The position numbers and the translations under genes are program-made. The notes below the pieces were generated by a model. The model did no database searches. It was not told the DNA's origin and saw nothing but the letters and a program-made list of their open reading frames with translations. A stretch of 9,875 bases of DNA from an uncultured Lachnospiraceae bacterium. GTDB lineage: Bacteria; Bacillota_A; Clostridia; Lachnospirales; Lachnospiraceae. Below, piece by piece: positions 1 to 9,875 of this stretch; within the stretch, counting starts at the first letter, position 1, and every line of letters starts with the position of its first letter. The DNA is taken from assembly GCA_946614075.1 (NCBI GenBank), contig CAMOGO010000029.1, positions 1 to 9,875 on the forward strand. Direction: 5' to 3'.

Positions 1-406
1 GACCGTGGAGGACCTCGCTGATGCTATTCCGACCACCATCAACACGGCTCTCGCGGCGGCTAAGTCGAGCGGTGAGTTCGATGGTGACAAGGGGGATAAG
101 GGCGACAAAGGCGACCCGGGTAGTGTCGGTCCCGCAGGTCCTCAGGGCGAGCGCGGAGAGACCGGCAGTCAGGGCGTTCCGGGTGAAGATGGCTTTTCTC
201 CCTCTGTCACCGTTACTCAGACCGCCACAGGAGCGACCATCACCATCACGGATAAGGACGGCACGACCACGGCTGACATTGCCAACGGAGAGCGAGGTCC
301 CAAAGGCGATACTGGCGACTCCTACGTGCTGACGAGTGCGGATAAATCGGAGATAGCACAGCTTGTTTTAGCGGCGATGCCGACCGCAGAAAGCGAGGCG
401 TTCTGA
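1..406 (+). CDS. Collagen-like phage tail/fibre protein, 3' part
   Basis: The reading frame is open from the left edge, so the 5' end is probably outside the window. The first in-frame start codon is a GTG at 5, but only four bases precede it and no ribosome site can be seen, so I do not treat it as the real start. Numbering from that GTG, residues 27-63 form an unbroken Gly-X-Y collagen-like run rich in GDK triplets, followed by a Thr-rich beta-type segment and a second short Gly-X-Y run at 95-104. Such repeats form trimeric stalks in phage tail fibres and tip proteins. The position just upstream of another tail protein and the lysin fits a tail-tip or receptor-contact role. The stop TGA overlaps the next ATG by one base, which implies translational coupling. 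The exact structural role is inferred. Confidence 0.8.
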   Translation, partial: TVEDLADAIPTTINTALAAAKSSGEFDGDKGDKGDKGDPGSVGPAGPQGERGETGSQGVPGEDGFSPSVTVTQTATGATITITDKDGTTTADIANGERGPKGDTGDSYVLTSADKSEIAQLVLAAMPTAESEAF

Positions 407-972
407 TGAAATACAGTATCGAAGGACAGACCCTGACCGATATTGCGGACGCTATCCGAGAAAAAACTGGCGACACTGCGGCTCTGACTGCGGCGGCTAT
501 GGCTGAGGCGATAGCTGGGATTAGTGGGGGCGGTGGATTGGAATATGAGAGTGGTATATGGACACCGGAAGAAGACATGTACACGCCTGTCGCCATAGAG
601 TTCAGCAATACACACGCAACCCCTCCTTGGATGTATTTTATTTGCAACGCAGCCCCAGAGAGCGAAATACGGAGGCTGAGCATAATCTTTCAAGAGTTTT
701 TTTCCTTCGATCGGTTGTGCGGTATCGTACGCGGCACTTACGGGCAAGCAAGAGCGATTTTTAGCACAACAGACGGAAGTTTTGCTTTTGGTGCCCGATA
801 CTCCTTCAATCTGAAAACTGATGGAACGACCACCGCCGATAACTATGCTACATGGGCAACCTCGGAGCACATTATGGCAAGGTCTGAAAATCCGAACAAA
901 ACGGACAGAGTAATGTTTTACGCCAAAGATACGCCATACAAATGGATCGCCGTCTGGGCACCCGAAGCATAA
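406..972 (+). CDS. Phage tail-tip/minor structural protein
   Basis: This 188-residue protein starts with an ATG that overlaps the previous stop by one base. Its first ~40 residues carry the pattern TLTDIADAIREKTG followed by an Ala-rich segment with AEAIAGI. This short module recurs at the N-terminus of many tail and baseplate-associated proteins of clostridial and bacillar phages, and I recognise it from that general pattern only. After a glycine linker (about residue 40) the rest (about 45-188) is rich in aromatic residues and probably beta-structured, with no enzyme motif I recognise; it could be a small receptor-binding or fibre-tip domain. Its place between a collagen-like protein and the lysin supports a late structural role. 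Its stop TAA overlaps the ribosome site of the lysin gene. Confidence 0.7.
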   Translation: MKYSIEGQTLTDIADAIREKTGDTAALTAAAMAEAIAGISGGGGLEYESGIWTPEEDMYTPVAIEFSNTHATPPWMYFICNAAPESEIRRLSIIFQEFFSFDRLCGIVRGTYGQARAIFSTTDGSFAFGARYSFNLKTDGTTTADNYATWATSEHIMARSENPNKTDRVMFYAKDTPYKWIAVWAPEA

Positions 973-981
973 GGAGGCACC
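970..981 (+). promoter_or_regulatory. Strong ribosome binding site of the lysin gene
   Basis: AAGGAGG at 971-977 is a full match to the anti-Shine-Dalgarno sequence and lies 4 bases before the ATG at 982. It overlaps the stop codon of the upstream tail gene (TAA 970-972), so ribosomes ending there are well placed to reinitiate on the lysin. It fixes the lysin start. Confidence 0.85.
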
Positions 982-2829
982 ATGATAAAAATTTATATCC
1001 CGGGCCTTCCCTGCAAGTCATACGAATACCGCAGAGGGGACGCCCAAATCATTCATGACGACGAAAAGAACTGCATCATCATAGACGGCGGCGAGCCTGA
1101 TTTGTGCAATAAGATACTCGCATACTGTCGGAACGTGGGCATCACTCATGCCACGTACATCTTGACACACTGGCATCCTGACCATGATGCAGGCATGAAG
1201 CAGTTATTGGAGTCCTCCCTCGTCATTGACAGGATATACTGTCCGCCTCCGGCAGAAGTCAAGGCGCTTGACATAGACGACTACAATAGGGCCTGCCGAA
1301 GAATAGCGCAAGCAAAGGCGCTGAAGAAGCAGATCATTTACCCTAATCCCAATGCCGTCACCCATGTCGTGGTCGGTAAGATACGGTGCCACCTGTGGAG
1401 GCGTGCGGGCAATCGGAACGACAAAACTGACTATCAAGTGAATAACACGTCCATACAGACGTATTTTCCCGACATGTACTATCTCAGCACTGGCGACATC
1501 ATCAACGCTTTCGAGGGGTATCTCTCCATCCTCAATGCGCCCGTGAAGGTGTTCAAGGTGCCCCACCATGGGAACGCCTGCACAGACGGCCCCTGCCGCA
1601 AGCTGAAGGAGCTGGGCGCGGAGCTGTGCTGGTACAATGACTGGGAAAAGAAGGGCGCGTCCGTAGGCTCCAGCAGCTTCAGCAAGTGGGGCGCGGGGTA
1701 CTGCAAAAAGTATTTCCACACGCTCCGCACGGATGCCGATATTTACATGACAGCGTTCGCAAAAACGCTGCAGGTGCAGTACGGGCACAACCATTACAGC
1801 TATGCCATCCCCTACGATGGCAAGGCGCCCACGGATCGCTGGGTGAAGGGTGCAAAGGGCTGGTGGTATGAATACGCGGACGGCACCTATGCGGTCGGCT
1901 GGAAGAAGCTCAAGTGGTCGAAAGGCGAGAACTGGTTCTATTTCACGAAGGACGGATGGATGTGCACGGGCTGGGTGTACGACGGCGGATGCTGGTATTT
2001 CTGCGATGGCAACGGCGCCATGAAAACAGGCTGGCTCACGTACAAGGGGAAAAGGTGTTACTTGGAGCCGACAGCCGGGAAAAATCAGGGCCATGCATAC
2101 ATGAGCCAGACGGCGGTCATCGATGGCAAGACATATGTGTTTGACTCTGACTGCTACGCCACAGAGATCAAGGAGGCGGAAGAACCTCGCAGCAAGTCCA
2201 GGCTCAACGTGATCGATATCGCCTCCTATCAGTCCGGGCTGGATCTTCGCAAGGTCAAGGTTGATGGAGTGATCATCAAGGCATCGCAGGGGACAGGATA
2301 CGTCAACCCCTGCTGCAACCGCCACTATGATCAGGCGAAGGAAGCTGGAATCCTCCGAGGGCTGTATCACTATGCGAACGGCTCCGGAGCTGTGGCAGAG
2401 GCTCACTTTTTTGTGGACACCATCAAAGACTGCATCGGAGACGCGATCCTCGCTCTGGATTGGGAAGGCGCGCAGAACCGCGCATTCGGCAACATGGATG
2501 TGGGATATTGCAAGACATTTCTCGACTGCGTCTATCAGCTTACCGGGGTGCGACCTCTCATCTACATGAGCAAATCTGTCTGCCGCGCTCACGACTGGTC
2601 ACCGGTGGCGGAACATTACGGATTATGGGCGGCTCAATACGCGAACATGAATCAGACAGGCTTCCAGGAGGAGCCGTGGACAGACAATAGGGGCTGGGGA
2701 GCATGGGAGTCCCCTGCGATCTACCAGTACTCGTCCCGTGGCAGGCTTGCCGGGTACGATGGGAACCTCGACATGGATATCGCTTACATGTCGGCAGCCG
2801 GCTGGAGGAAGTATGCTTCAAAGAGCTAA
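982..2829 (+). CDS. Three-domain lysin: MBL-fold hydrolase, wall-binding repeats, GH25 lysozyme
   Basis: This 615-residue protein has three parts. Residues 1-~280 are a metallo-beta-lactamase-fold domain with H63-x-H65-x-D67-H68 (HWHPDH), an STGD segment ending at D172, and PHHGN with H195/H196; this ligand pattern resembles the ComEC type and pneumococcal Pce. Residues ~294-362 hold about three aromatic GW...WYxF repeats of the choline/glucan-binding kind. Residues ~407-610 are a GH25 muramidase, which cuts the MurNAc-GlcNAc bond of peptidoglycan: VIDIASYQ with D412, LALDWEG with D493 and E495, and a closing LDMDIAY with D597/D599. All expected catalytic acids appear present. There is no signal peptide, so export would need a holin, and none is visible nearby. 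The MBL substrate is unknown; a wall phosphodiester such as teichoic-acid phosphocholine is an inference from the Pce-like domain pairing. A tail-associated lysin is an alternative role. Confidence 0.9.
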   Translation: MIKIYIPGLPCKSYEYRRGDAQIIHDDEKNCIIIDGGEPDLCNKILAYCRNVGITHATYILTHWHPDHDAGMKQLLESSLVIDRIYCPPPAEVKALDIDDYNRACRRIAQAKALKKQIIYPNPNAVTHVVVGKIRCHLWRRAGNRNDKTDYQVNNTSIQTYFPDMYYLSTGDIINAFEGYLSILNAPVKVFKVPHHGNACTDGPCRKLKELGAELCWYNDWEKKGASVGSSSFSKWGAGYCKKYFHTLRTDADIYMTAFAKTLQVQYGHNHYSYAIPYDGKAPTDRWVKGAKGWWYEYADGTYAVGWKKLKWSKGENWFYFTKDGWMCTGWVYDGGCWYFCDGNGAMKTGWLTYKGKRCYLEPTAGKNQGHAYMSQTAVIDGKTYVFDSDCYATEIKEAEEPRSKSRLNVIDIASYQSGLDLRKVKVDGVIIKASQGTGYVNPCCNRHYDQAKEAGILRGLYHYANGSGAVAEAHFFVDTIKDCIGDAILALDWEGAQNRAFGNMDVGYCKTFLDCVYQLTGVRPLIYMSKSVCRAHDWSPVAEHYGLWAAQYANMNQTGFQEEPWTDNRGWGAWESPAIYQYSSRGRLAGYDGNLDMDIAYMSAAGWRKYASKS

Positions 2830-2851
2830 TTACTCGTGTTAACTCGAGTAA
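2830..2851 (+). repeat. Short inverted repeat after the lysin gene
   Basis: TTACTCG (2830-2836) and CGAGTAA (2845-2851) are perfect 7-bp arms separated by 8 bases, starting right after the lysin stop. No T-run follows, so it is a poor terminator on its own. It may be an RNA 3'-end stabilising hairpin or a protein site; its function is unknown. Confidence 0.5.
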
Positions 2852-2908
2852 AGCCGCGCGTCACGGTCAGGCACAGCCGCAGAATATGGCGCACTCGTAT
2901 GAGACTAT

Positions 2909-2930
2909 CTAAATCCCATGGGATATTTAG
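2909..2930 (+). repeat. Palindromic element upstream of the late terminator
   Basis: A perfect 12-bp palindrome, ATCCCATGGGAT (2913-2924), sits within outer arms CTAAAT (2909-2914) and ATTTAG (2925-2930). As RNA it could fold as a small hairpin with a two-base bulge. It is 10 bases upstream of the main terminator. The 2830-2939 stretch otherwise has no convincing gene; a 60-codon open frame there has no ribosome site and runs through the terminator. Confidence 0.45.
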
Positions 2931-2939
2931 TCAAGATCA

Positions 2940-2976
2940 CCCCGGAAGGAGAGATCCTTCCGGGGCTCTTTTTTTT
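2940..2976 (+). terminator. Strong Rho-independent terminator of the late operon
   Basis: CCCCGGAAGGA (2940-2950) pairs perfectly with TCCTTCCGGGG (2955-2965), an 11-bp GC-rich stem closed by a GAGA (GNRA-type) tetraloop. The T-rich tail CTCTTTTTTTT follows at 2966-2976. It ends transcription coming from the tail and lysin genes and insulates the small cassette that follows. Confidence 0.93.
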
Positions 2977-2995
2977 GCCCAAAACGCAATCCTTT

Positions 2996-3026
2996 TAAAT
3001 AAAAGTGTTGACATATAAATAAAAGT
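2996..3026 (+). repeat. Tandem 11-bp direct repeats, candidate operator
   Basis: TAAATAAAAGT occurs twice, at 2996-3006 and 3016-3026, exactly 20 bp apart. One copy ends just before the -35 box and the other fills most of the promoter spacer. This is a good layout for a repressor that binds repeated half-sites on one face of the helix. The ribbon-helix-helix protein encoded downstream is the obvious candidate ligand; that link is an inference. Confidence 0.6.
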
Positions 3027-3036
3027 ATAGTAATAT
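3008..3036 (+). promoter_or_regulatory. Sigma-A-type promoter of the two-gene cassette
   Basis: The -35 box TTGACA (3008-3013) is a perfect consensus match. It is followed by a 17-bp spacer and the -10-like TAATAT (3031-3036) in a very A/T-rich stretch unlike the surrounding GC-richer DNA. It lies about 45 bp upstream of the first cassette ATG and directly after the late terminator, so the cassette can be expressed on its own, including in the lysogen. Confidence 0.75.
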
Positions 3037-3078
3037 ATAGTCAAGGGGAGACAATAAGGCATAGCAAAGGAGGACATC

Positions 3079-3351
3079 ATGGAAAAGAGAATGGCAAAGA
3101 ATCTGCTGGCAGAGCAGGGTATCAAGATTTTCATCAAGGACATCCAGGCTGTCAAGATCCACCCTGTCACGGTGGTGAGCCACAATGTAGGAGAAGGTCT
3201 CGCGCCGGATCGCTTCTCTCACAGGGACATCGTTGTGGTCCTCATGAAGGACGGCACCGGCTATCAGATCCTCAGGGAGACGGTGGACAAGGATGGTAAC
3301 TTCTCCACCAATTCAGCAAGATTCGTCACAAGAGAAATCAGAAACATCTGA
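3079..3351 (+). CDS. Hypothetical protein, first gene of moron cassette
   Basis: This 90-residue protein starts at an ATG preceded by a strong AAAGGAGG ribosome site. I do not recognise a family. It is soluble and mixed alpha/beta in appearance, with no membrane segment, no signal peptide and no cysteine cluster. A basic N-terminus (MEKRMAKNLL) leads into IKIFIKDIQAVKIHPV, then a hydrophobic strand DIVVVLM and a charged C-terminus. It is the first gene of a two-gene unit with its own promoter, and its stop lies 14 bases before the next ATG, so the two proteins are probably made together. A lysogenic-conversion or partner function is possible but cannot be shown from sequence. Confidence 0.75.
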   Translation: MEKRMAKNLLAEQGIKIFIKDIQAVKIHPVTVVSHNVGEGLAPDRFSHRDIVVVLMKDGTGYQILRETVDKDGNFSTNSARFVTREIRNI

Positions 3352-3365
3352 CAAGGAGGGCAGCA

Positions 3366-3797
3366 ATGAACAAGATCATCAAGGGGAAGCGATACAACAC
3401 GGACACGGCCCAGCTCATGGGTGAATACAGCTACGGCTACCGCGGAGACTTCGGACATTGGACCGAAGAACTCTACCGGAAGCAGACAGGGGAGTTCTTC
3501 TTGTACGGAGAGGGAGGCCCTGCGAGCAAATACGCTGAATCGGTAGGTCAGAATCAGTGGAGCGGTGGAGAAAGGATCAGGCCGCTGACCATTGGCGAGG
3601 CGAAGTCCTGGGCCGAGAAATATCTGGACGGCGATGAGTACGAAAAGATATTCGGAGTGGTCGAGGAAGATGGTGGCAAGAAGGTGATGACCTACTCGCT
3701 CCCAATGGGTGCGATCGACAAGCTCAAAAGGGCTGCAGTCAATGAAGGAAGATCTGCAAGTGGCGTCCTCGCAGATCTGATTGAAAAATATCTGTGA
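3366..3797 (+). CDS. Moron-cassette protein with C-terminal ribbon-helix-helix domain
   Basis: This 143-residue protein has the ribosome site AAGGAGGG just upstream of its ATG. The N-terminal ~100 residues begin IIKGKRYNTDTAQLMGEY and contain TGEFFLYGEGGPASKYAE. I recognise this as a family spread through mobile elements of gut Bacillota, without a proven function. The last ~36 residues (about 107-143) begin with a strand-like VMTYSLPMGAIDKLKRAA and continue as two helices, which fits a ribbon-helix-helix DNA-binding fold similar to the CopG/Arc type. Autoregulation through the 20-bp-spaced direct repeats at the cassette promoter is plausible. A good terminator follows the stop within 5 bases. 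It might instead be the antitoxin-like half of a pair with the upstream gene, but no toxin motif is visible there. Confidence 0.8.
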   Translation: MNKIIKGKRYNTDTAQLMGEYSYGYRGDFGHWTEELYRKQTGEFFLYGEGGPASKYAESVGQNQWSGGERIRPLTIGEAKSWAEKYLDGDEYEKIFGVVEEDGGKKVMTYSLPMGAIDKLKRAAVNEGRSASGVLADLIEKYL

Positions 3798-3801
3798 TGG
3801 G

Positions 3802-3838
3802 AATCCCCGGAAGGACATGACCTCCCGGGGATTTTTTT
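3802..3838 (+). terminator. Rho-independent terminator of the moron cassette
   Basis: AATCCCCGG (3802-3810) pairs with CCGGGGATT (3825-3833), and after one A-C mismatch AGG (3812-3814) pairs with CCT (3821-3823) around a 6-base loop. The T-run lies at 3832-3838. It ends the two-gene cassette. The left arm shares CCCCGGAAGGA with the late terminator at 2940. Confidence 0.9.
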
Positions 3839-3842
3839 AAAG

Positions 3843-3859
3843 CGTGACATTTTGTCACG
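3843..3859 (+). repeat. 17-bp palindrome next to attP
   Basis: CGTGACATTTTGTCACG has perfect 7-bp arms (3843-3849 and 3853-3859) and a TTT centre. It lies 5 bp from the candidate attP. No T-run follows it on either strand, so it is more likely a protein binding site than a terminator. It could bind a recombination directionality factor or a host regulator; this is speculation. Confidence 0.55.
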
Positions 3860-3863
3860 GTTT

Positions 3864-3913
3864 GACGGTGTTAATCGAAAGCCACGGAAGGGTGAATGTC
3901 AAATAACACCGTC
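3864..3913. other. attP: Candidate phage attachment site attP
   Basis: A 50-bp imperfect dyad with perfect 10-bp outer arms, GACGGTGTTA (3864-3873) and TAACACCGTC (3904-3913). In all, 17 of 25 positions are symmetric, including inner CAC/GTG at 3883-3885 and 3892-3894. The centre is the non-palindromic dinucleotide AA at 3888-3889. Large serine integrases use attP sites of about 50 bp built as two imperfect inverted half-sites around a non-palindromic central dinucleotide, so size, symmetry and centre all fit. It lies 5 bp from the integrase stop codon, in the only free gap between integrase and the rightward genes. The call is strong by structure but has not been tested against a bacterial attB. 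Confidence 0.72.
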
Positions 3914-3918
3914 TAAGG

Positions 3919-5223
3919 TCACAAAAAAATCACATCAATTGAGCGGTCCGGGCCTATCCATATTTCCTTGATTACCGATTGCCATAGATATCTCTTCTCC
4001 TTGATGGTGAAGGTCTTATACAGCTCTGCGAAAGAGTCAGGCAGTTCGAGTGGCCTGAGTGGCTCGATCGGCTGGACATTCCCGCACTCCGCGATTGCGG
4101 CATCAAGCTTCTCCCTGTCTGCCTTGTATTCATCGAGGCTGATGACATCGCTCAGATAGAGATCCTTCAGCCTGTCTCGCTTCCGTGTCAGATCCGCGAC
4201 TTTCTTCCGGGAGTCATTCCTTTTTTTGGCTTCGACCTCATAGTGCAGTTTGCGTTCACCGAGGAGGCGGTTCACATTATCAAGAAGATATCGCTCGATC
4301 ACGTTCTCCGACATCCCCACCGAATTGGTGCAGGCTCCGGCAGGTCTATAATGCTTCTGGCATTTGTACCGCGTGTACCCATGAATGTAGATTGCTGAGT
4401 AGTTGCGTCTACACGTTTTGCAGTGGATCATCCCGGTAAATATATACTCTCTCTTTGCCGTGTTCTTCCTGTTAAAGTGGAGCTTCCTCTGGACATCATC
4501 GTACAGTTCCCGATCTATGATAGGCTCACAAAAGTGGTCATTGTCTCTATTGACTCCGATATATCGAGGATTCCGCATCATGTGTTTGATAGCCACATCT
4601 GTCCTGATAAGGCCGTATACGTTTGCGGCATAGCGGACCAGTTCATTGAGATTTGTGTTTTTAGAGTAATGCCGAAAAAGGTCTCTTACCATCTCCGCGT
4701 CATCGTTAGGGACAAGATGCTTATTGACTATCGAATATCCAATCGGACACGATCCTGTGGTCACCTCTCCCTTCTTGATCTTGTAGTCGAATACCTGTCT
4801 GACCCTCTGCCCTGTGTTCTCCGCTTCGAATTGAGCGATGCTCATCATCTGGTTGACCACAAGACGGCCCTGTGGCGTGGTGGTGTCATAGATGGGTTCC
4901 CAGATAGCTGTCCACCCCACGCCATATTTGTCTAAGACCTCCATCATGTTGAGATAATGTCTTATGGAGCGATAGAGGCGGTCAAGCTTGGTCACGATGA
5001 TCCTGTCAATCATCCCTGCCTTCACGTCACCGAGGAGCCGCTGCAGTTCATCGCGGTCCGCTCTTGTTCCGCTGATTCCATCGTCCATGTACTCCCCGGC
5101 ACAGACCATGTCAGGCCTGTCATCAATATACTTGCGTAGCGCCGCCCTCTGGGCAGGGATCGAGTCTCCTTCCTGGGCCTGTCGATCGGTAGAGACCCGG
5201 AGATAAATTGCTGTTCTTATCAT
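3919..5223 (-). CDS. int: Large serine recombinase (phage integrase)
   Basis: This 434-residue protein begins at the ATG at 5223-5221, preceded by AAAAGGAGG seven bases upstream; that site excludes the longer frame reaching 5418. Residues 1-~145 are the resolvase catalytic domain: YLRVSTDRQ with nucleophile Ser11 and Arg9, DDGISGT at 47-53, and KLDRLYR at 79-85. Residues ~155-265 are the recombinase domain (TTGSCPIGY, RNPRYIG). A zinc ribbon uses C268, C271, C288 and C298, and ~325-380 is a charged coiled coil typical of integrases that control directionality. It acts on attP and a host attB to integrate the phage genome, and needs a directionality factor to excise. Its length is at the short end for the family. 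Expression is probably from the repressor transcript, so it would be made in the lysogenic programme. No terminator is clear after its stop. Confidence 0.96.
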   Translation of the reverse strand: MIRTAIYLRVSTDRQAQEGDSIPAQRAALRKYIDDRPDMVCAGEYMDDGISGTRADRDELQRLLGDVKAGMIDRIIVTKLDRLYRSIRHYLNMMEVLDKYGVGWTAIWEPIYDTTTPQGRLVVNQMMSIAQFEAENTGQRVRQVFDYKIKKGEVTTGSCPIGYSIVNKHLVPNDDAEMVRDLFRHYSKNTNLNELVRYAANVYGLIRTDVAIKHMMRNPRYIGVNRDNDHFCEPIIDRELYDDVQRKLHFNRKNTAKREYIFTGMIHCKTCRRNYSAIYIHGYTRYKCQKHYRPAGACTNSVGMSENVIERYLLDNVNRLLGERKLHYEVEAKKRNDSRKKVADLTRKRDRLKDLYLSDVISLDEYKADREKLDAAIAECGNVQPIEPLRPLELPDSFAELYKTFTIKEKRYLWQSVIKEIWIGPDRSIDVIFL

Positions 5224-5425
5224 TGTGCGCCTCCTTTTCGATCTGCTGCACGTTTGCCTTTTCCCAATCGTTGCTTTCGATGTGATCCAGGGCGTGGAGA
5301 TAGGCCCTGACTCTCCCGCGGTAGGAGAGCCGGGCGTTGAGATAGATCGTGTATCCTTCCGGGCATGGAGCGACCATCTCATCCACGGGCAGATCCACGA
5401 TGTAAACATAGATGTCATTCGTCAC
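5123..5425 (-). CDS. Small ImmA/IrrE-like protein overlapping the integrase start
   Basis: This 100-codon gene starts at GTG (5425-5423) with AAGGAG eight bases upstream, inside the last codons of the repressor (11-base overlap). Residues 1-~69 look like a compact ImmA/IrrE-type fold: a strand segment IYVYIVDLP, the typical GYTIYLNARLSYRGRV, then YLHALDHIESNDW. The zinc pair H44/H48 is kept, but the catalytic Glu of HExxH is Ala45, so it is probably not an active protease. Proteins of this family act on phage or ICE repressors, and its place beside the repressor fits. The similarity seems to end near EKEAHND (about residue 69). The last ~31 codons overlap the integrase in another frame, look unlike any folded domain, and probably reflect a missing stop codon. 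The function is inferred. Confidence 0.75.
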   Translation of the reverse strand: MTNDIYVYIVDLPVDEMVAPCPEGYTIYLNARLSYRGRVRAYLHALDHIESNDWEKANVQQIEKEAHNDKNSNLSPGLYRSTGPGRRLDPCPEGGATQVY

Positions 5426-5783
5426 GATTGGTCTCCTTGAATCGTAAGAGCATATCTGCCGCCATTCTCAGGTCCTCCGGGCGGCTGTCGCGGGCAGCAT
5501 CGAAGAGGATGCGCATCTCAGGATTGTCGAACAGCTCCTGTGCCATCTTCGCTGTGGACTCATTAAAATAATATCCATTCTGCTGTACATTTGTTTGTAC
5601 ACCCATGAGGGAGTCAACCGACACGTCAAGGAATTCCGCAATCTTTACCAGCTTGTCAGCTTTGAGGTTATACCTTCCCCTCTTCCAGTCCGAAAGCGTA
5701 CCGGCACTGATACCCGTCCCTTTGGACACTGCATAGTCCGAATATCCCTTTGAGTCTCTGATCCTTGCATAATCTTCGTACAT
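5415..5783 (-). CDS. cI-type repressor (XRE-family HTH)
   Basis: This 122-residue protein starts at ATG 5783-5781 with GGAGG just upstream; longer frames reaching 6206 run through the operators and the Cro gene and are rejected. Residues 3-62 are an XRE helix-turn-helix domain (YAVSKGTGISAGTLSDWKRG, then ADKLVKIAEFLDVSVDSLMG). The C-terminal half is a helical segment with MAQELFDNPEMRILFDAARD and ends LLRFKETNRDE; it looks like a dimerisation domain and has no LexA-type Ser/Lys protease signature. Release from repression therefore may not use RecA self-cleavage, and the adjacent ImmA-like protein could be involved. It is likely to bind the TTCGG...CCGAA sites in 5829-5946, and its own leftward promoter contains one of them. 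It is clearly paralogous to the divergent Cro-like protein. Confidence 0.9.
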   Translation of the reverse strand: MYEDYARIRDSKGYSDYAVSKGTGISAGTLSDWKRGRYNLKADKLVKIAEFLDVSVDSLMGVQTNVQQNGYYFNESTAKMAQELFDNPEMRILFDAARDSRPEDLRMAADMLLRFKETNRDE

Positions 5784-5820
5784 GCTCTCCTCCAAACCGT
5801 AAATTCCCGAAAATTTACTG

Positions 5821-5849
5821 TTGACACATTCGGCGAGCCGTAGTATATT
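5821..5849 (+). promoter_or_regulatory. Early rightward promoter (PR-like)
   Basis: TTGACA (5821-5826) is a perfect -35, followed by exactly 17 bp and TATATT (5844-5849), a 5/6 match to the -10 box. The predicted start is near 5856, giving a leader of about 134 bases to the Cro-like ATG at 5990. An operator-like dyad fills the spacer, so repressor binding should block polymerase directly. It probably drives the whole rightward early operon. Confidence 0.85.
5829..5842. promoter_or_regulatory. Operator site 1 (within the rightward promoter)
   Basis: TTCGGCGAGCCGTA matches the pattern TTCGG-N4-CCGAA in 9 of 10 fixed positions. It lies wholly in the -35/-10 spacer of the rightward promoter. Confidence 0.7.
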
Positions 5850-5863
5850 AAGCCTAAGGGGCA

Positions 5864-5877
5864 TTCGGTACACCGAA
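5864..5877. promoter_or_regulatory. Operator site 2 (perfect dyad)
   Basis: TTCGGTACACCGAA has perfect 6-bp arms around a 2-bp centre and is the best copy of the TTCGG-N4-CCGAA pattern. It lies just downstream of the predicted rightward start, in the zone transcribed by both face-to-face promoters. Confidence 0.78.
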
Positions 5878-5893
5878 AACCCCGATAGGTAAA

Positions 5894-5906
5894 TACGGAA
5901 GCCGAT
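5894..5906. promoter_or_regulatory. Operator-like site 3 (degenerate)
   Basis: TACGGAAGCCGAT is a weaker copy, with CGG and CCG three rather than four bases apart and one mismatch in each arm. It lies midway between sites 2 and 4. It may be a low-affinity site or chance. Confidence 0.45.
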
Positions 5907-5927
5907 GTGAAATTGTGTGGCAACTAT

Positions 5928-5956
5928 ATTATATCGGCTATCCGAATTATTGGCAA
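5928..5956 (-). promoter_or_regulatory. Leftward repressor/lysogeny promoter
   Basis: On the minus strand, TTGCCA (5956-5951, 5/6 match to -35) is followed by 17 bp and a perfect TATAAT (5933-5928). The predicted start is near 5921, with a leader of about 138 bases to the repressor ATG at 5783. It should transcribe repressor, ImmA-like gene and integrase. It points toward the rightward promoter, so the two leaders overlap. Confidence 0.85.
5933..5946. promoter_or_regulatory. Operator site 4 (within the leftward promoter)
   Basis: ATCGGCTATCCGAA matches TTCGG-N4-CCGAA in 9 of 10 fixed positions. It lies in the spacer of the leftward promoter, mirroring site 1 in the rightward promoter. A further half-site, TTCGG, occurs at 5974-5978 just before the Cro-like ribosome site. 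Confidence 0.7.
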
Positions 5957-5989
5957 CAATTTTGTAACAAAAATTCGGAAAGGAGGAAA

Positions 5990-6196
5990 ATGAAGGCAAC
6001 GTATCAGAGATATGCCCGCCTGAGAGACGAGCGCGGCATGACGGATTACCGAGTCTGTAAGGAGACGAACATCGCACCGTCCACCATTTCAGACTGGAAG
6101 AACGGGCTCGGAACTCCGAAAGTTGACAAGCTGCTGAAGATCTCGACCCTGTTTGGAGTCCAGATCGAGGACATGCTGGAAGAGGTGACTGTATGA
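5990..6196 (+). CDS. Cro-like regulator (XRE-family HTH)
   Basis: This 68-residue protein starts at the ATG at 5990 with AAAGGAGG four bases upstream. An upstream ATG at 5915 is rejected because it lies in the leader and has no ribosome site. Nearly the whole protein is one helix-turn-helix domain: YRVCKETNIAPSTISDWKNG followed by VDKLLKISTLFGVQIEDMLE. It aligns residue for residue with the N-terminal domain of the repressor (both share YAR-RD, DY-V-K-T-I, TISDWK or TLSDWK, and DKL-KI). It is therefore the short Cro-type partner lacking a C-terminal domain. It probably binds the same operators with a different order of affinity, favouring the lytic programme. As the first gene of the early operon it overlaps the next gene by 4 bases (ATGA). 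Confidence 0.9.
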   Translation: MKATYQRYARLRDERGMTDYRVCKETNIAPSTISDWKNGLGTPKVDKLLKISTLFGVQIEDMLEEVTV

Positions 6197-6468
6197 TCCC
6201 AATCATTGATGACTACTACGTCACTGTCGAGACCAATCCGACCAACTACATTGTGAGACGTGGGAAAGGGGAGAAGGACAAGAAGGGAACCACGAAGGCC
6301 AGACCGCTGAGTTACCACACAAGCCTCGCGAAGGCGATTTCATTCATCCGTGGGCAAATAGTCGCTGAGAAGCTGACAGGGGACTTCCTGCACCTTCGCG
6401 CAGCCCTCGCGGCGGTCTCTGAGGTGGATGACCGCTTCGAGAAAATCATTTCAGAGGTGAAGGCATGA
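6193..6468 (+). CDS. DUF5405-like early phage protein
   Basis: This 91-residue protein starts with an ATG overlapping the Cro-like stop (ATGA). The N-terminal part (IIDDYYVTVETNPTNYIVRR) predicts short beta strands. It is followed by a Lys/Gly-rich loop (KGEKDKKGTTK), a Tyr-containing segment RPLSYHTSLAKAI, and a helical C-terminus. This pattern resembles the small DUF5405 proteins found next to Cro or replication genes in Bacillota phages; I make the family call from memory of the pattern, so it is moderate. No catalytic motif is seen. Its stop overlaps the next small gene within ATGATGA. Confidence 0.72.
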   Translation: MIPIIDDYYVTVETNPTNYIVRRGKGEKDKKGTTKARPLSYHTSLAKAISFIRGQIVAEKLTGDFLHLRAALAAVSEVDDRFEKIISEVKA

Positions 6469-6560
6469 TGAACATCGAACGACTGCTTCGCGCTCTCTCC
6501 GAGATCCTGGGGGAGCGGAGCGGGGCAGAGGTGGAGGTGAGGATTGACGGCAACAATTAA
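6465..6560 (+). CDS. 31-residue early miniprotein
   Basis: This small gene starts at ATG 6465 (or the adjacent ATG at 6468), overlapping the previous stop in ATGATGA. The product is MMNIERLLRALSEILGERSG followed by AEVEVRIDGNN: one amphipathic helix and one strand. A stop overlapping a start on the left and the ribosome site of the next gene lying inside its 3' end are typical of a real, coupled phage gene. Small proteins with the same helix-strand build occur in early regions of clostridial phages. Its function is unknown. Confidence 0.6.
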   Translation: MMNIERLLRALSEILGERSGAEVEVRIDGNN

Positions 6561-6813
6561 GTGCGACCCTTCCAGGCTCCCTGTTCCATTCGCTCCGAAG
6601 CCGATCAAGAGACAGGTCAGGGTTGTGGTCGAGGAGAAACACCTTCCCATCAAGAAGCGGGAACAGACCGCTTGGACGGAGGACAGGGACAGGGTGCTGA
6701 TCCAGCTCCGGCACGAGGGAAAGACAATGCAGCAGTGTGCGGATGAGCTGGGAACGACAAGAGGCGCCATAAACAAGAGGCTTGCAAGACTGAGGAGGAG
6801 GGGAGAGATATGA
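6544..6813 (+). CDS. Helix-turn-helix early protein with TTG start
   Basis: This 89-residue protein appears to start at TTG 6544, preceded by GGAGGTGAGGA; no ATG exists before residue ~58, within the HTH domain. The N-terminal half is basic and Pro-rich (PVPFAPKPIKRQVRVVVEEKHL), with a possible DNA-contacting tail. The C-terminal half (about residues 44-89) is a helix-turn-helix: WTEDRDRVLIQLRHEGKTMQ, then CADELGTTRGAINKRLARLR. This resembles Myb/GcrA-like recognition domains in phage regulators. It may control later transcription or bind origin DNA; which is unknown. Its start overlaps the miniprotein gene by 17 bases and its stop overlaps the next ATG in ATGA. Confidence 0.72.
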   Translation: MTATIKCDPSRLPVPFAPKPIKRQVRVVVEEKHLPIKKREQTAWTEDRDRVLIQLRHEGKTMQQCADELGTTRGAINKRLARLRRRGEI

Positions 6814-6995
6814 GAGATGACACAGGATTTGTCCCGTCAGCATTGGCGCTGGGCGGGGTGATCCTCGCGGCGATCTGCTGCGAGAGTATATGCGACAGCC
6901 CGGTGGCTGTATTCATGGCTATCGGAGCACTAATCATGGCATTCGCGGCAGGGGCCGCGGCAAAGAAGGAGGAAGAAAATGACTGGAATTCTTGA
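6810..6995 (+). CDS. Small membrane protein with two predicted transmembrane segments
   Basis: This 61-residue protein starts in an ATGA overlap with the previous gene. Residues ~10-25 (ALALGGVILAAICC) and ~32-50 (VAVFMAIGALIMAFAAGAA) are hydrophobic, joined by a short loop with CESICDSP, and the C-terminus is charged (KKEEENDWNS). This gives a hairpin membrane protein with a cytoplasmic tail. I do not recognise the family. A holin is unlikely because it lies in the early operon, far from the lysin. Superinfection exclusion or host-membrane modification fits the place, but this is only an inference. The gene's 3' end carries the ribosome site (AAGGAGG) of the next gene. Confidence 0.65.
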   Translation: MRDDTGFVPSALALGGVILAAICCESICDSPVAVFMAIGALIMAFAAGAAAKKEEENDWNS

Positions 6996-7173
6996 GGATC
7001 TGATCAAGGCTATTGAGATGCTGGACGTATTCGAGATCGCAGAGGCAAGTGTTTGCGGATGGCACGTTGAAATCCACGAGTCCGATTATAGGAAGGCGCG
7101 GGTGATCGAGATCACGAGGCCGTATCCGCCGGAGGAGCCGGAGGCAGAGGAGGCCCAGGATGAGGAGCGGTGA
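6979..7173 (+). CDS. Small acidic hypothetical protein
   Basis: This 64-residue protein has a strong AAGGAGG ribosome site about 8 bases before its ATG and overlaps the membrane-protein gene by 17 bases. An N-terminal amphipathic helix (ILEDLIKAIEMLDVFEIAEA) is followed by a strand region (WHVEIHESDYRKARVIEITR). A Pro/Glu-rich acidic tail follows (PYPPEEPEAEEAQDEER). I recognise no family. The acidic tail could be a DNA mimic or a protein-binding tail, but there is no direct evidence. Its 3' end overlaps the start of the zinc-ribbon gene by 14 bases. Confidence 0.62.
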   Translation: MTGILEDLIKAIEMLDVFEIAEASVCGWHVEIHESDYRKARVIEITRPYPPEEPEAEEAQDEER

Positions 7174-7369
7174 TCCGCTCCACGACTTCTACGAACATGA
7201 GAAGGAAGTCGAGGACAGAGAAAGCAGATGCCCCATCTGCGACTGCTGTGGCGAGCCGATCACAGACGAGACATTCTGCAAGGTGAATATGCGGGGGAAG
7301 GTGCTGTGCTTTCATTGGGACTGCACCGTCCTCCGATACACAGAAGATTATATCACGGAGGGCGAATAA
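7160..7369 (+). CDS. Small zinc-ribbon early protein
   Basis: This 69-residue protein starts at ATG 7160. An N-terminal helix (DPLHDFYEHEKEVEDRESRC) is followed by CPICDCCGEPITDETFCKVN and RGKVLCFHWDC. The paired CxxC-type cysteines around CCGEPI and the later C-FHWDC group suggest one bound zinc ion. Small zinc-ribbon proteins with an N-terminal D-Y-E helix are common in early regions of Bacillota phages just before recombination genes. Their role is unknown; an adaptor or nucleic-acid-binding function is possible. Its stop TAA shares one base with the ATG of the annealing-protein gene (TAATG). Confidence 0.72.
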   Translation: MRSGDPLHDFYEHEKEVEDRESRCPICDCCGEPITDETFCKVNMRGKVLCFHWDCTVLRYTEDYITEGE

Positions 7370-8016
7370 TGGCCACATATGAGGATATCCGGAAGGCGAA
7401 CGCCTCTATCCGGACCACAGATATCAAGGGCAAGATGTATGCGGAGGTCAACGAGAGGATCAAGGCCTTCCGCATGGTGCACCCCAATGGATACATCACC
7501 ACACAGATCATCAGTCTTGACGGCGGGGTCTGCGTGATCAAGGCAGAGGTAGGAGACGAAGAGAAGGTCCTGGGGGCCGGGACTGCCTACGAAAAGGAGG
7601 GGTCCACGTTTATTAACAAGACCTCATACATTGAGAACTGCGAGACCTCTGCTGTGGGCCGTGCGCTGGGAATGGCTGGATTCGGCATTGACACTTCTGT
7701 TGCCAGTGCCGAGGAGGTCCAGAACGCCATCGCCCAGCAGAACGCGGGAAGAAGTGCGAAGGAGCCCGAGGCTAAGAAGGAGCCCGAGGCTAAGAAGGAG
7801 CCCGAGGACAAGAAGGAGACGGAGAAGGTCGCAAAGCAGAGGATCAACGGGGTCTATGCTGATTCGCTCCGGAAGCGGTGCGAAAACTTCAATGTGGATC
7901 TCAATAAATTCCTTGCCTTGAACAAGGTCGAGCGGGTCGAGGACCTGACCATGAGGCAGTTCATGACGGCCGTTGAGAATTGGGACAAGGTGGTAGACAA
8001 GTGCAAGGTAGAATAA
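7369..8016 (+). CDS. ERF-like ssDNA-annealing recombination protein
   Basis: This 215-residue protein starts at the ATG at 7369; an open frame extends upstream to 7228, but that part is the zinc-ribbon gene in another frame. The N-terminal ~130 residues contain ISLDGGVCVIKAEVG, GAGTAYEKEG and the hallmark ENCETSAVGRALGMAGFGID, the motif I associate with ERF-like single-strand annealing proteins. A low-complexity linker (about residues 131-153) carries three KEPEAK-type repeats. The C-terminal ~60 residues (INGVYADSLRKRCENFNVDL onward) form a small helical domain. These proteins pair complementary single strands during phage recombination and repair. NinB-like and resolvase-like genes directly downstream complete a plausible recombination set. 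It could also belong to a related annealing family. Confidence 0.72.
   Translation: MATYEDIRKANASIRTTDIKGKMYAEVNERIKAFRMVHPNGYITTQIISLDGGVCVIKAEVGDEEKVLGAGTAYEKEGSTFINKTSYIENCETSAVGRALGMAGFGIDTSVASAEEVQNAIAQQNAGRSAKEPEAKKEPEAKKEPEDKKETEKVAKQRINGVYADSLRKRCENFNVDLNKFLALNKVERVEDLTMRQFMTAVENWDKVVDKCKVE
7759..7827 (+). repeat. 18-bp tandem repeat in the annealing-protein linker
   Basis: The unit AAGGAGCCCGAGGCTAAG occurs at 7759-7776 and 7777-7794 without change. A third copy at 7795-7812 has one changed codon, and a partial degenerate copy follows to 7827. It encodes KEPEAK repeats, a charged flexible linker between the two domains, and probably varies in copy number by slippage. Confidence 0.85.
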
Positions 8017-8537
8017 AAGACATCTACCGAGGAATGGCTGGGGGGACAGTGGTCACGATCGAGACCTCTGCCTCCCCGGCAGAGATCGAGAAGCTGAAGG
8101 ACAAGCCCATCGAGATCAAGGCCATGAGGAGACATAGGACGCTTGACGCGAATGCTCTCCTCTGGGCGTGTATCGGAGACATCGCGAAGGCCATCATGGC
8201 TGACAAGTGGGATGTGTATCTCACCATGCTGAGACGATACGGCCAATATACTTACGTATGCGTCAAGCCTGACGCGGTGGAGATGGTCAAACGGCAGTGG
8301 AGGGAGACGGAGGTCATCGGTGATTATCTTGTAAACGGCCAGAAGGCAGTGCAGATGCTCTGCTACTATGGTTCCTCCACCTACGACACGAAGGCATTCT
8401 CCGCACTCCTTGACGGAGTGATCAGCGAGATGGTCGAGATGGGATTAACTCCTCCGGACCGAGGAGAGATGAAAAGGACACTTGAAGCATGGGAGAAAAA
8501 GAACGGAGAAAGGGAGCCCGGGGCGAAAGACTGCTGA
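8001..8537 (+). CDS. ninB: NinB-like recombination protein
   Basis: This 178-residue protein probably starts at GTG 8001, giving MQGRIKDIYRGMAGGTVVTI, with AAGGTGG seven bases upstream; the longer frame from 7980 adds six residues without support. The pattern matches the NinB (lambda Orf) family: an N-terminal strand region, then IEIKAMRRHRTLDANALLWA, the signature Arg-rich SLDANA-like segment. A helical half follows with YGQYTYVCVKPDAVEMVKRQ and CYYGSSTYDTKAFSALLDGV. Lambda Orf binds single-stranded DNA and assists annealing proteins, standing in for RecFOR. The 16-base overlap with the annealing-protein gene fits joint use. Its 3' end overlaps the resolvase gene by 49 bases. Confidence 0.82.
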   Translation: MQGRIKDIYRGMAGGTVVTIETSASPAEIEKLKDKPIEIKAMRRHRTLDANALLWACIGDIAKAIMADKWDVYLTMLRRYGQYTYVCVKPDAVEMVKRQWRETEVIGDYLVNGQKAVQMLCYYGSSTYDTKAFSALLDGVISEMVEMGLTPPDRGEMKRTLEAWEKKNGEREPGAKDC

Positions 8538-8851
8538 GAGCATTCCTGGAAGGATGCGGAATCTCAGCGAAGAGAGGTTTCGTGTGGATGGGCCAGTCAG
8601 ACCTTGTCGGAATAGAGGGCATTCATGTTGAGTGCAAATTTGTCGAAAAACTCAACGTACGCAAGGCGATGGATCAGGCCATCTCCGAGGCGGAGAAGCG
8701 CAAGGACGGTCTCCCCACCGTATTCTGGAAGGTCTCCCGGAGGCCATGGCTCACCGTCATGCGGACGGAGGACTGGGCGAAGCTGTATTTACTGGCAAGG
8801 GGGCGTTATGAGTCAGAACGAGAAGATATTGAATCACCTTCAGACACATGA
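8489..8851 (+). CDS. Hjc-like Holliday junction resolvase / PDDEXK nuclease
   Basis: This 120-residue protein starts at ATG 8489 inside the NinB-like gene. It has the layout of a small PDDEXK nuclease: GARGERLLRAFLEGCGI (motif I Glu), GQSDLVGIEGIHVECK with the metal-binding Asp and the E-x-K core, then VEKLNVRKAMDQAISEAEKR. It ends with TVFWKVSRRPWLTVMR and a helix. Phage proteins of this type are usually annotated as Holliday junction resolvases. It would resolve branched DNA made by the annealing and NinB-like proteins, or trim concatemers for packaging. All core catalytic residues appear present. The final ~15 residues overlap the next gene in another frame. Confidence 0.85.
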   Translation: MGEKERRKGARGERLLRAFLEGCGISAKRGFVWMGQSDLVGIEGIHVECKFVEKLNVRKAMDQAISEAEKRKDGLPTVFWKVSRRPWLTVMRTEDWAKLYLLARGRYESEREDIESPSDT

Positions 8852-9011
8852 AGGGATTACTTCCAGCGAAGCCATCCGGCTGTATGGCTGCACAAGGCTG
8901 GCTGCGAGGATCTCTGATCTGAGATCCAGAGGGCACGACATCCGGAGCGAGAAGGTCGTGAAGAAGGACGGCAAAAAGACCGTCTCATATTCGAGGTATT
9001 GGCTGGCATGA
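8808..9011 (+). CDS. Winged-helix DNA-binding early protein
   Basis: This 67-residue protein starts at ATG 8808, overlapping the resolvase-like gene by 44 bases; the longer open frame from 8625 is a shadow inside that gene. MSQNEKILNHLQTHEGITSS is helix 1, EAIRLYGCTRLAARISDLRS is the helix-turn-helix, and RGHDIRSEKVVKKDGKKTVS with YSRYWLA forms the wing. This is a well-known small winged-helix type in Bacillota phages, usually just before replication genes. It may bind the nearby origin or regulate the operon; neither is proven. Its stop overlaps the replication gene start in ATGA. Confidence 0.82.
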   Translation: MSQNEKILNHLQTHEGITSSEAIRLYGCTRLAARISDLRSRGHDIRSEKVVKKDGKKTVSYSRYWLA

Positions 9012-9613
9012 AAAAGTCATATGTCATGTACAAGTCATGGTCAAAGATGTTCCTCCAGCTGGAGCCGGAGAAGGCAGGGAAGCTGATCCAGGCCATTTGC
9101 GCATATCAGGACGGCGAGGAATACGTCATAGGAGATCCGGTCCTTGAGGCAGTCTTTTCGATGTTCAAAGAGACCTTTGATGCAGACCGTGTGGCTTACG
9201 AGGAGAAATGCGAGAAGAACCGCACGAATGCCCTCAATCGTCTACGGTCGCAAGCGAACGCTAACGATCGCTTACGTTCGACCTATGATAATGATAATGA
9301 ATATGATAATGATAATGATTTAAAAGAAAAAGAGAGTAAAAAGAAATTGTCGGCACGATTCGTGCCTCCCTCTCTCCAAGAGGTCAAAGGGTACTGTCTG
9401 GAAAGAAAGAACAAGGTCGACCCGGAGGGATTCATTGATTTCTACACATCCAAAAACTGGATGGTCGGCAAGACCAAGATGAAGGATTGGAAGGCTGCAG
9501 TCCGGACCTGGGAGCGAAGGGACAGGGGAAGTCCCGAGAAGAACAAGTTCAACAGATTCGAGCACAATGACTACGACTTCGAAGAATTGGAGAGGGCTCT
9601 GCTCAATGGATAG
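9008..9613 (+). CDS. DUF6291-type phage replication protein
   Basis: This 201-residue protein starts at the ATG at 9008 (ATGA overlap); a TTG at 8999 in the same frame is less likely. Residues 1-~75 match the DUF6291 pattern: SYVMYKSWSKMFLQLEPEKA, GKLIQAICAYQDGEE, and VFSMFKETFDADRVAYEEKC. Residues ~76-118 are low-complexity (RLRSQANANDRLRS, then YDNDNEYDNDND) and match the DNA repeats that look like an origin. Residues ~119-201 contain VKGYCLERKNKVDPEGFIDF and WKAAVRTWERRD, the C-terminal motif seen in many DnaD-like phage replisome organisers. It probably binds the origin inside its own gene and recruits the host helicase; a helicase loader is not seen in the window. Role by analogy, confidence good for family, moderate for function. 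Confidence 0.8.
   Translation: MKKSYVMYKSWSKMFLQLEPEKAGKLIQAICAYQDGEEYVIGDPVLEAVFSMFKETFDADRVAYEEKCEKNRTNALNRLRSQANANDRLRSTYDNDNEYDNDNDLKEKESKKKLSARFVPPSLQEVKGYCLERKNKVDPEGFIDFYTSKNWMVGKTKMKDWKAAVRTWERRDRGSPEKNKFNRFEHNDYDFEELERALLNG
9241..9280 (+). repeat. Four tandem 10-bp iteron-like units
   Basis: The units TCTACGGTCG, CAAGCGAACG, CTAACGATCG and CTTACGTTCG lie head to tail with exact 10-bp period, and CCTCAATCG just before (to 9240) looks like a decayed fifth. The common core is (A/G)CG-N-(T/A)CG preceded by an A/T-rich triplet. A 10-bp period puts every unit on the same face of the helix, as expected for iterons bound by an initiator. Confidence 0.65.
9284..9345 (+). other. A/T-rich tract next to iterons, candidate DNA-unwinding element
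   Basis: Two 18-bp imperfect copies built on GATAAT triplets (9284-9301, 9302-9319) are followed by an A-rich run to 9345. This is by far the most A/T-rich part of the early operon. Its position directly beside the iterons suggests an unwinding element of an origin inside the replication gene. Confidence 0.55.
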
Positions 9614-9872
9614 TAAGAAGGGAGTCTGCTTCATCTGCGGACGGATCGGACCCACGGAAAGGCATCACATATTCGGAGGAGCAAATCGTAGGTGGTCGGA
9701 GAAGTATGGTCTTGTGGTTGACCTCTGCCACTTCTGCCACAACGAGCCTCCGAATGGTGTACATCACAATGTACGGCAAATGAGGTGGCTGCGGGCCCTG
9801 GGACAGGAGGAATTCGAAAAGACGCACTCGCATGAGGAATTCATGCAGATATTTGGGAGGAATTACAGATGA
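9606..9872 (+). CDS. HNH-like zinc-binding phage protein
   Basis: This 88-residue protein starts at ATG 9606, overlapping the replication gene by 8 bases; the frame upstream to 9567 is a shadow. CFICGRIGPTERHHIFGGAN gives a CxxC pair and an RHH of HNH type, followed by WSEKYGLVVDLCHFCHNEPP (second CxxC plus H-N) and GVHHN. This ordered C-C, HH, C-C, H-N arrangement is the beta-beta-alpha-metal fold of HNH nucleases or of NinG-like phage recombination proteins. The C-terminus is helical (MRWLRALGQEEFEKTHSHEE). It is shorter than full HNH enzymes, so it may be a minimal nuclease or a structural zinc protein. It follows the replication protein in the same operon. Confidence 0.78.
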   Translation: MDSKKGVCFICGRIGPTERHHIFGGANRRWSEKYGLVVDLCHFCHNEPPNGVHHNVRQMRWLRALGQEEFEKTHSHEEFMQIFGRNYR

Positions 9873-9875
9873 ATC
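9869..9875 (+). CDS. Start of next early gene (cut by window edge)
   Basis: An ATG at 9869 overlaps the stop of the HNH-like gene (ATGA) and has GGGAGGA about 8 bases upstream, the same coupling used through the operon. Only two codons are inside the window, so nothing can be said about the product. Confidence 0.6.

Follow-up and report, generated by a model that had tools for sequence, protein, structure and literature searches.

We analyzed a stretch of 9,875 nucleotides (hereafter, the window) from an uncultured Lachnospiraceae bacterium (assembly GCA_946614075.1, contig CAMOGO010000029.1, positions 1 to 9,875), which encodes a predicted phage lysin of 3 modules: an N-terminal domain of the metallo-β-lactamase (MBL) fold, wall-binding repeats, and a C-terminal GH25 lysozyme. 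An earlier reading made from the letters alone (the sequence-only reading) had placed its open reading frame (ORF) at positions 982–2829 (+), and these coordinates are correct. We consider the ORF to be real, since direct reading reveals an ATG start, a translation of 615 amino acids, and a ribosome-binding-site-like AGGAGG at 972–977 (+). The MBL domain, which is of the ComEC/Pce type, covers residues 1–280 (982–1821, +) and is followed by repeats of the choline-binding type at residues ~284–397 (1831–2172, +; bounds set by eye) and by the GH25 domain at residues 407–613 (2200–2820, +). A terminator-like hairpin 3' of the gene (2940–2965, +) has the longest stem (11 pairs) of 7 pattern matches in positions 1–6300 (shuffled mean, 4.4).

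In a Pfam scan of the lysin, Glyco_hydro_25 (PF01183) was over its cut-off at residues 411–591 (1.3e-33), and the assignment agrees with fold and conservation. The acids D412, D493, and E495, which the sequence-only reading had singled out, are kept together with D597 in 40/40 aligned GH25 members (40 of the 52 listed). Choline_bind_3 scored 27.3 against a cut-off of 27 bits, and Choline_bind_1 was over its cut-off as well. By eye, the wall-binding region consists of 3 well-formed repeats and a degenerate tail, in line with the 3 aromatic repeats noticed before, and the aromatic residues W318, W331, W338, Y339, W351, and Y360 are likewise kept in 40/40 aligned GH25 members.

The MBL domain matched family models only weakly: Lactamase_B of Pfam stayed below its cut-off (residues 28–78, 0.036), and the NCBIfam matches GloB (7.4e-6) and ComEC (2.8e-4) were far below theirs. 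Therefore, the assignment rests on a predicted model, fold comparison, profile searches, and conservation. The AlphaFold2 model, built from a 40-protein alignment, reached a mean predicted local distance difference test score of 92.5 and a predicted template modeling score of 0.57, the latter leaving the relative placement of the modules uncertain. The sequence-only reading had named Pce and ComEC as the structures to compare; the predicted domain adopts an MBL fold with a complete metal site, for which Pce (~16% identity) and ComEC tie in the fold comparison, while an identity as an antibiotic-type β-lactamase was rejected on fold. Searched against solved structures, a nine-sequence profile of the MBL domain found its best matches in Pce/CbpE (1.9e-7), and a profile-profile comparison matched ComEC-like domains at 99.7%. 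This fits the suggestion of the sequence-only reading that the designs of Pce and Cpl-1 are joined in one protein.

The predicted metal site is complete, as had been read from the letters, and it is conserved. Its ligands are H63, H65, D67, and H68 in the first motif (H-x-H-x-D-H, 1168–1185, +), D172 (1495–1497, +), which by homology is the metal-bridging Asp, and H195 and H196 in the HHGN motif (1564–1569, +). All 7 are kept, down to ~21% identity, in 240/240 listed homologs, a set comprising the best 120 of 899 matches with the MBL domain fused to other modules and the best 120 of 176 matches in which it is encoded by a separate gene. Within the same set, an Asn-x-x-Ser motif (N154/S157; 1441–1452, +) is invariant, and Pce and a ComEC-like domain have this motif at the aligned position. 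Comparison of nonsynonymous (dN) and synonymous (dS) substitutions shows that purifying selection acts on the MBL domain: dN was 0.061 and dS 1.248 against contig L004 (ratio 0.049; 280 codons), and 0.060 and 1.060 against L002 (ratio 0.056; 144 codons). This is of much the same order as in the GH25 part, with dN/dS of 0.098 (L003), 0.080 (L002), and 0.053 (L061, dS 3.7).

The 899 matches were obtained in a protein search with the lysin, and the best 120 of them were classified by Pfam, with lytic classes and CW_7 totals counted by hand from the Pfam columns. The lytic partner of the MBL domain was GH25 without CHAP in 22, GH25 with CHAP in 30, an amidase in 62, and CHAP alone in 4; the remaining 2 were P0054, with a holin family, and P0046, with no lytic domain found. 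P0054 was discarded as evidence of a holin-MBL fusion, its tail looking frame-shifted and the protein being a probable artifact. P0046 (428 amino acids as stored, from a cluster of 19 sequences) consists of an MBL domain and choline-type repeats, the layout of Pce. A choline-type repeat was found in 118/120 listed fused proteins, P0079 and P0089 listing none. Among the best 120 separate-gene matches, CW_7 repeats occur in 88/120, and the C-terminal repeats of separate MBL genes match the CW_7 structure 5i8l (4.8e-14, profile against PDB), which we take to be the Cpl-7 lysozyme.

The exchange of lytic partners is also visible among close relatives: the MBL parts of the window and L004 are 95% identical at the protein level, while their lytic ends are GH25 and amidase, respectively. 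In a tree built quickly from 86 MBL domains (55/120 fused as 85% identity representatives, 21/120 separate at 65%, and 10/19 cellular), the lysis MBLs split from the 10 cellular ones with a Shimodaira–Hasegawa-like approximate likelihood ratio of 100. Among 54 labeled rows (P0046 was left unlabeled), the lytic class changes at least 8 times, and well-supported branches alone force 6 changes (GH25 label); fused and separate forms interchange twice, both changes resting on the long-branched row P0050. A cruder phmmer labeling (amidase 56, 9 unlabeled) was discarded for the tree. These comparisons indicate that the lysis MBL has repeatedly been re-paired with different lytic domains. Regarding the combination of MBL domain, repeats, and GH25 proposed by the sequence-only reading, the architecture search found it, although not as a unique design: judged by sequence, it represents a single form of a lysis enzyme that is widespread and that is also encoded by a gene of its own within holin-lysin cassettes.

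Further architectures were seen in individual contigs. An ORF at L007:5001-7727 combines MBL domain and choline-type repeats with glucosaminidase and PG_binding_1, a further lytic class. A separate MBL gene at L064:4001-5173 is broken by in-frame stops and followed by CW_7-like and GH25-like pieces. At L055:3989-6532, a GH25/CHAP phage lysin is broken at the apparent catalytic Cys of CHAP by an intein-like element (Hint_2 over its cut-off; Intein_splicing just below, 1.6e-8). In a fold search of BFVD, some viral proteins named lysozyme aligned over at least 350 columns (e.g., A0A8S5URN6).

Upstream of the lysin, the window begins with the end of a collagen-like tail fiber ORF (5–406, +; ORF and family search), followed by an ORF at 406–972 (+) that is conserved in L004 (L004:1-573) and occupies, between tail gene and lysin, the position of the holin in many relatives. 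This ORF has no family match and no membrane helix by hydropathy, and the L004 copy shows 1 helix only at a lax threshold. Downstream lies a lysogeny module of a serine integrase (3919–5418, −) and 2 helix-turn-helix regulator ORFs (5415–6206, −, and 5915–6196, +), which partly overlap on opposite strands. The position of the lysin after a tail ORF, with integrase and regulators downstream, therefore points to a temperate phage.

An MBL ORF was present in 24 distinct contigs, the window included, 23 of which provide upstream DNA (L002 was left out of the holin count). L053, L055, L057-L060, and L008-L011 were left out for having no MBL ORF at E 1e-15, and L051, L062, L012, and L070 were set aside as duplicates of counted contigs. 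Immediately upstream of the MBL gene, 12 of the 23 have a holin at Pfam cut-off (L007, L043, L044, L047, L048, L049, L052, L054, L056, L061, L065, and L066), so that about half of the relatives have a holin-lysin cassette context; this and similar counts are not independent, because the loci were found with MBL-lysin queries and include near-copies (L005/L006, L046/L050, and L047/L049). Nine Dp-1-type holins extend a few bases into the start of the MBL gene (for L044, L047, and L049, this presumes that the gene starts with the match). In L003, a two-helix ORF with a weak PHROG holin match (1.2e-4) overlaps the MBL gene start, and in L001, L005, L006, and L063, small membrane-protein ORFs lie downstream, 2 of which were tested and carry no Pfam name. 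We also considered that the lysin might be a virion (tail) lysin rather than an endolysin, which would suit the order of tail genes and lysin without holin in the window; however, relatives carry the MBL gene in holin cassettes.

Searches of nucleotide collections returned few relatives. With tblastn at 1e-3, the MBL domain of the window matched none of 50,697 phage or 72,556 plasmid records, a single-sequence search that low-identity relatives may escape. Under the same settings, the separate-gene protein of L056, also a single sequence, matched none of the phage records and 1 gene in the plasmid records, annotated as ComEC/Rec2; full-length queries gave partial matches to phage records, none over 80% of the query. 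That such searches can miss distant relatives is evident from PHROG families 14556 and 7043, which hold distant MBL segments. The related segment in phrog_7043, a family of phage tail proteins whose profile spans 1,077 positions, was matched at 5.2e-12 (by L063:4001-5176 and L056:3977-5149); MBL enzymes may thus also be carried on virions. A scan of genome contigs revealed a single bin contig with a relative, L001, and 1 genome bin, G001, corresponding to it, in which the MBL domain is 34% identical; the phage contig may have been assigned to this bin in error. In a sample of its phylum, 42/392 genomes matched at 1e-3, G001 at 5.6e-40 and none of the remaining 41 better than 2e-9, and in a sample of the order, G001 was the only one of 385 genomes to match at 1e-15.

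The explanation we favor, which we hold to be evenly balanced between right and wrong, is that a temperate phage uses this protein as its endolysin, with the MBL domain being a phosphodiesterase that cuts a wall polymer as an accessory lysis enzyme. The repeats would hold the lysin to the wall, the GH25 domain would cut glycan, and the MBL domain, as a presumably active metal-dependent hydrolase, would cleave a phosphodiester-linked wall polymer, of the teichoic acid type or its decoration, and thereby strip another layer of the wall, one that impedes the lysin or would trap either the lysin or the progeny. A phosphodiester in the wall is indicated because the fold relatives cut phosphodiesters, most listed variants carry a wall-binding family, the genes lie in lysis cassettes, and the metal site is kept; we infer a teichoic-acid-type polymer as the substrate. 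Wall teichoic acids have been reported to hinder endolysin binding in Staphylococcus aureus (available text of PMC10778630).

Several observations weigh against this explanation. No forward-strand ORF with a membrane helix lies within 600 bases before or 1000 bases after the lysin in the window, and no holin was found beside the MBL gene in 10 contigs (the window, L001, L004, L005, L006, L045, L046, L050, L063, and L064); at the Pfam level, 10 contigs besides the window show none there. Against the more distant L003, dN/dS of the MBL part is 0.201, at a dS of 2.6 that is near saturation. A profile of 36 separate-gene proteins found its best MBL match in PDB 7ev5 (3.3e-4), followed by ComEC at 0.005, and Pce was not among its PDB matches at E 0.1. 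Furthermore, no Arg aligns with R140 in Pce or in the ComEC-like domain L013, from which we infer that the substrate pocket differs from both. Lastly, G001 has neither LicD, which was found in 4/21 genomes searched (G001 and 20 relatives), nor the CDP-glycerol glycerophosphotransferase PF04464; its wall may therefore be devoid of classical teichoic acid and of choline. This counts against both the teichoic-acid and the phosphocholine readings, with the assignment of the contig to the bin being uncertain.

Among the alternatives, a function in the strict sense of Pce, in which the MBL domain would remove phosphocholine from choline-decorated teichoic acids and free the choline-binding lysin from debris, is unlikely overall, while being possible for the members with choline repeats. 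Pce/CbpE ranks first among the PDB matches of the MBL profile, the choline-binding repeats exceed their cut-offs and keep their 6 aromatics, and P0046 has the very layout of Pce. However, as a general activity, removal of phosphocholine appears less likely than cleavage of a teichoic-acid-type phosphodiester, because most of the listed separate-gene relatives carry CW_7, which in Cpl-7 is described as binding muropeptide instead of choline and as serving choline-free walls (available text of PMC3466307). Moreover, the separate-gene profile did not retrieve Pce, R140 is not shared with it, and LicD is missing from G001.

Hydrolysis of another ester, amide, or lactone in the wall, for instance in peptidoglycan or D-alanyl esters, is quite improbable. 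The MBL superfamily is described as spanning many bond types (available text of PMC12455585), and the strong retention of R140 (239/240) and C200 (228/240) among the listed homologs would accommodate such a substrate, whereas both nearest structural relatives, Pce and ComEC, cut phosphodiesters.

We give similarly little credence to a nuclease like the MBL domain of ComEC, which would cut host DNA freed at lysis or incoming DNA. Until the holin triggers, canonical endolysins accumulate in the cytoplasm, where the DNA of the phage itself is also present; this counts against such an activity, and a wall substrate is more in keeping with the fusion to wall-binding modules. While the fold tie and the profile-profile match with ComEC would agree with a nuclease, as would the basic isoelectric point of the domain (8.5; median 8.2 for fused and 8.8 for separate forms, compared to 5.1 for cellular ComEC-like frames), DNA is, by sequence comparison, a possible but less likely substrate, because the residue after HHG is Asn (223) or Gly (17) in all 240 listed homologs but Ser in 19/19 cellular ComEC-like frames, which were chosen by their H-x-H-x-DH and HHG motifs with family membership unchecked. 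In the available text of PMC12455585, the exchange S728A lowered the nuclease activity of Moorella ComEC, S728 probably being the Ser after HHG. Finally, a non-catalytic structural or binding module is very improbable: some MBL-fold domains are thought to be inactive, such as that of Streptococcus pneumoniae ComEC (available text of PMC5031224 and PMC12455585), but a purely structural role was rejected on the conservation of all metal ligands in the listed homologs.

Lysis of Gram-positive cells is usually taught as the work of a holin and a peptidoglycan hydrolase. Since this lysin carries a predicted MBL hydrolase whose relatives recur in the lysis genes of many phages, peptidoglycan may not be the only wall polymer that these phages cut on bursting their host. 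A broader proposal, to which we assign somewhat less than an even chance, is that a group of mostly uncultured phages possesses a third lysis function. In this proposal, an MBL phosphodiesterase, whose gene either belongs to the holin-lysin cassette or is joined to that of the lysin, would remove teichoic-acid-type polymers during lysis and be the counterpart of LysB and spanins for walls with anionic glycopolymers. If true, non-peptidoglycan wall polymers are an obstacle that phages overcome with enzymes; the need for teichoic acid removal in efficient lysis or progeny release becomes directly testable, and a new class of enzymes acting on the wall becomes available to biochemistry.

GH25, choline repeats, CW_7, Pce, and ComEC are each already known, while no description of an MBL-bearing endolysin, or of an MBL enzyme beside a lysin, was found in the open-license literature, most subscription journals lying outside this scope. 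The classical holin-endolysin cassette is shared at the Pfam level by the 12 contigs named above but not by the window. Cpl-7 has the CW_7 repeats in common with the separate MBL genes, but is itself a muramidase (available text of PMC3466307), not an MBL enzyme. Pce (CbpE, LytD; PDB 2bib/1wra) shares with the window protein the predicted MBL fold, the full ligand set, and choline-binding repeats after the MBL domain; it differs in overall sequence and in the absence of R140, and many MBL relatives have CW_7 in place of choline repeats. Furthermore, Pce is described as an enzyme secreted by the host, bearing a signal peptide but lacking a lytic domain (available text of PMC4929436). In Cpl-1, GH25 and choline-type repeats are combined as in the window lysin, where the order is reversed, with repeats before GH25, and an N-terminal MBL domain is added. 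The MBL (BLACT) domain of ComEC (PDB 9ic4) carries HHGS where the window family has HHGN or HHGG, and Pfam found no family of the competence channel domain of ComEC in the window lysin. LysB of mycobacteriophages is an α/β-hydrolase esterase acting on mycolyl-arabinogalactan. It is described as a second lysis enzyme with a non-peptidoglycan target and a peptidoglycan-binding part (available text of PMC8309991). In role, LysB would be the nearest known system, but the analogy goes no further, as the extra domain of the window lysin has an MBL fold and not that of an α/β-hydrolase.
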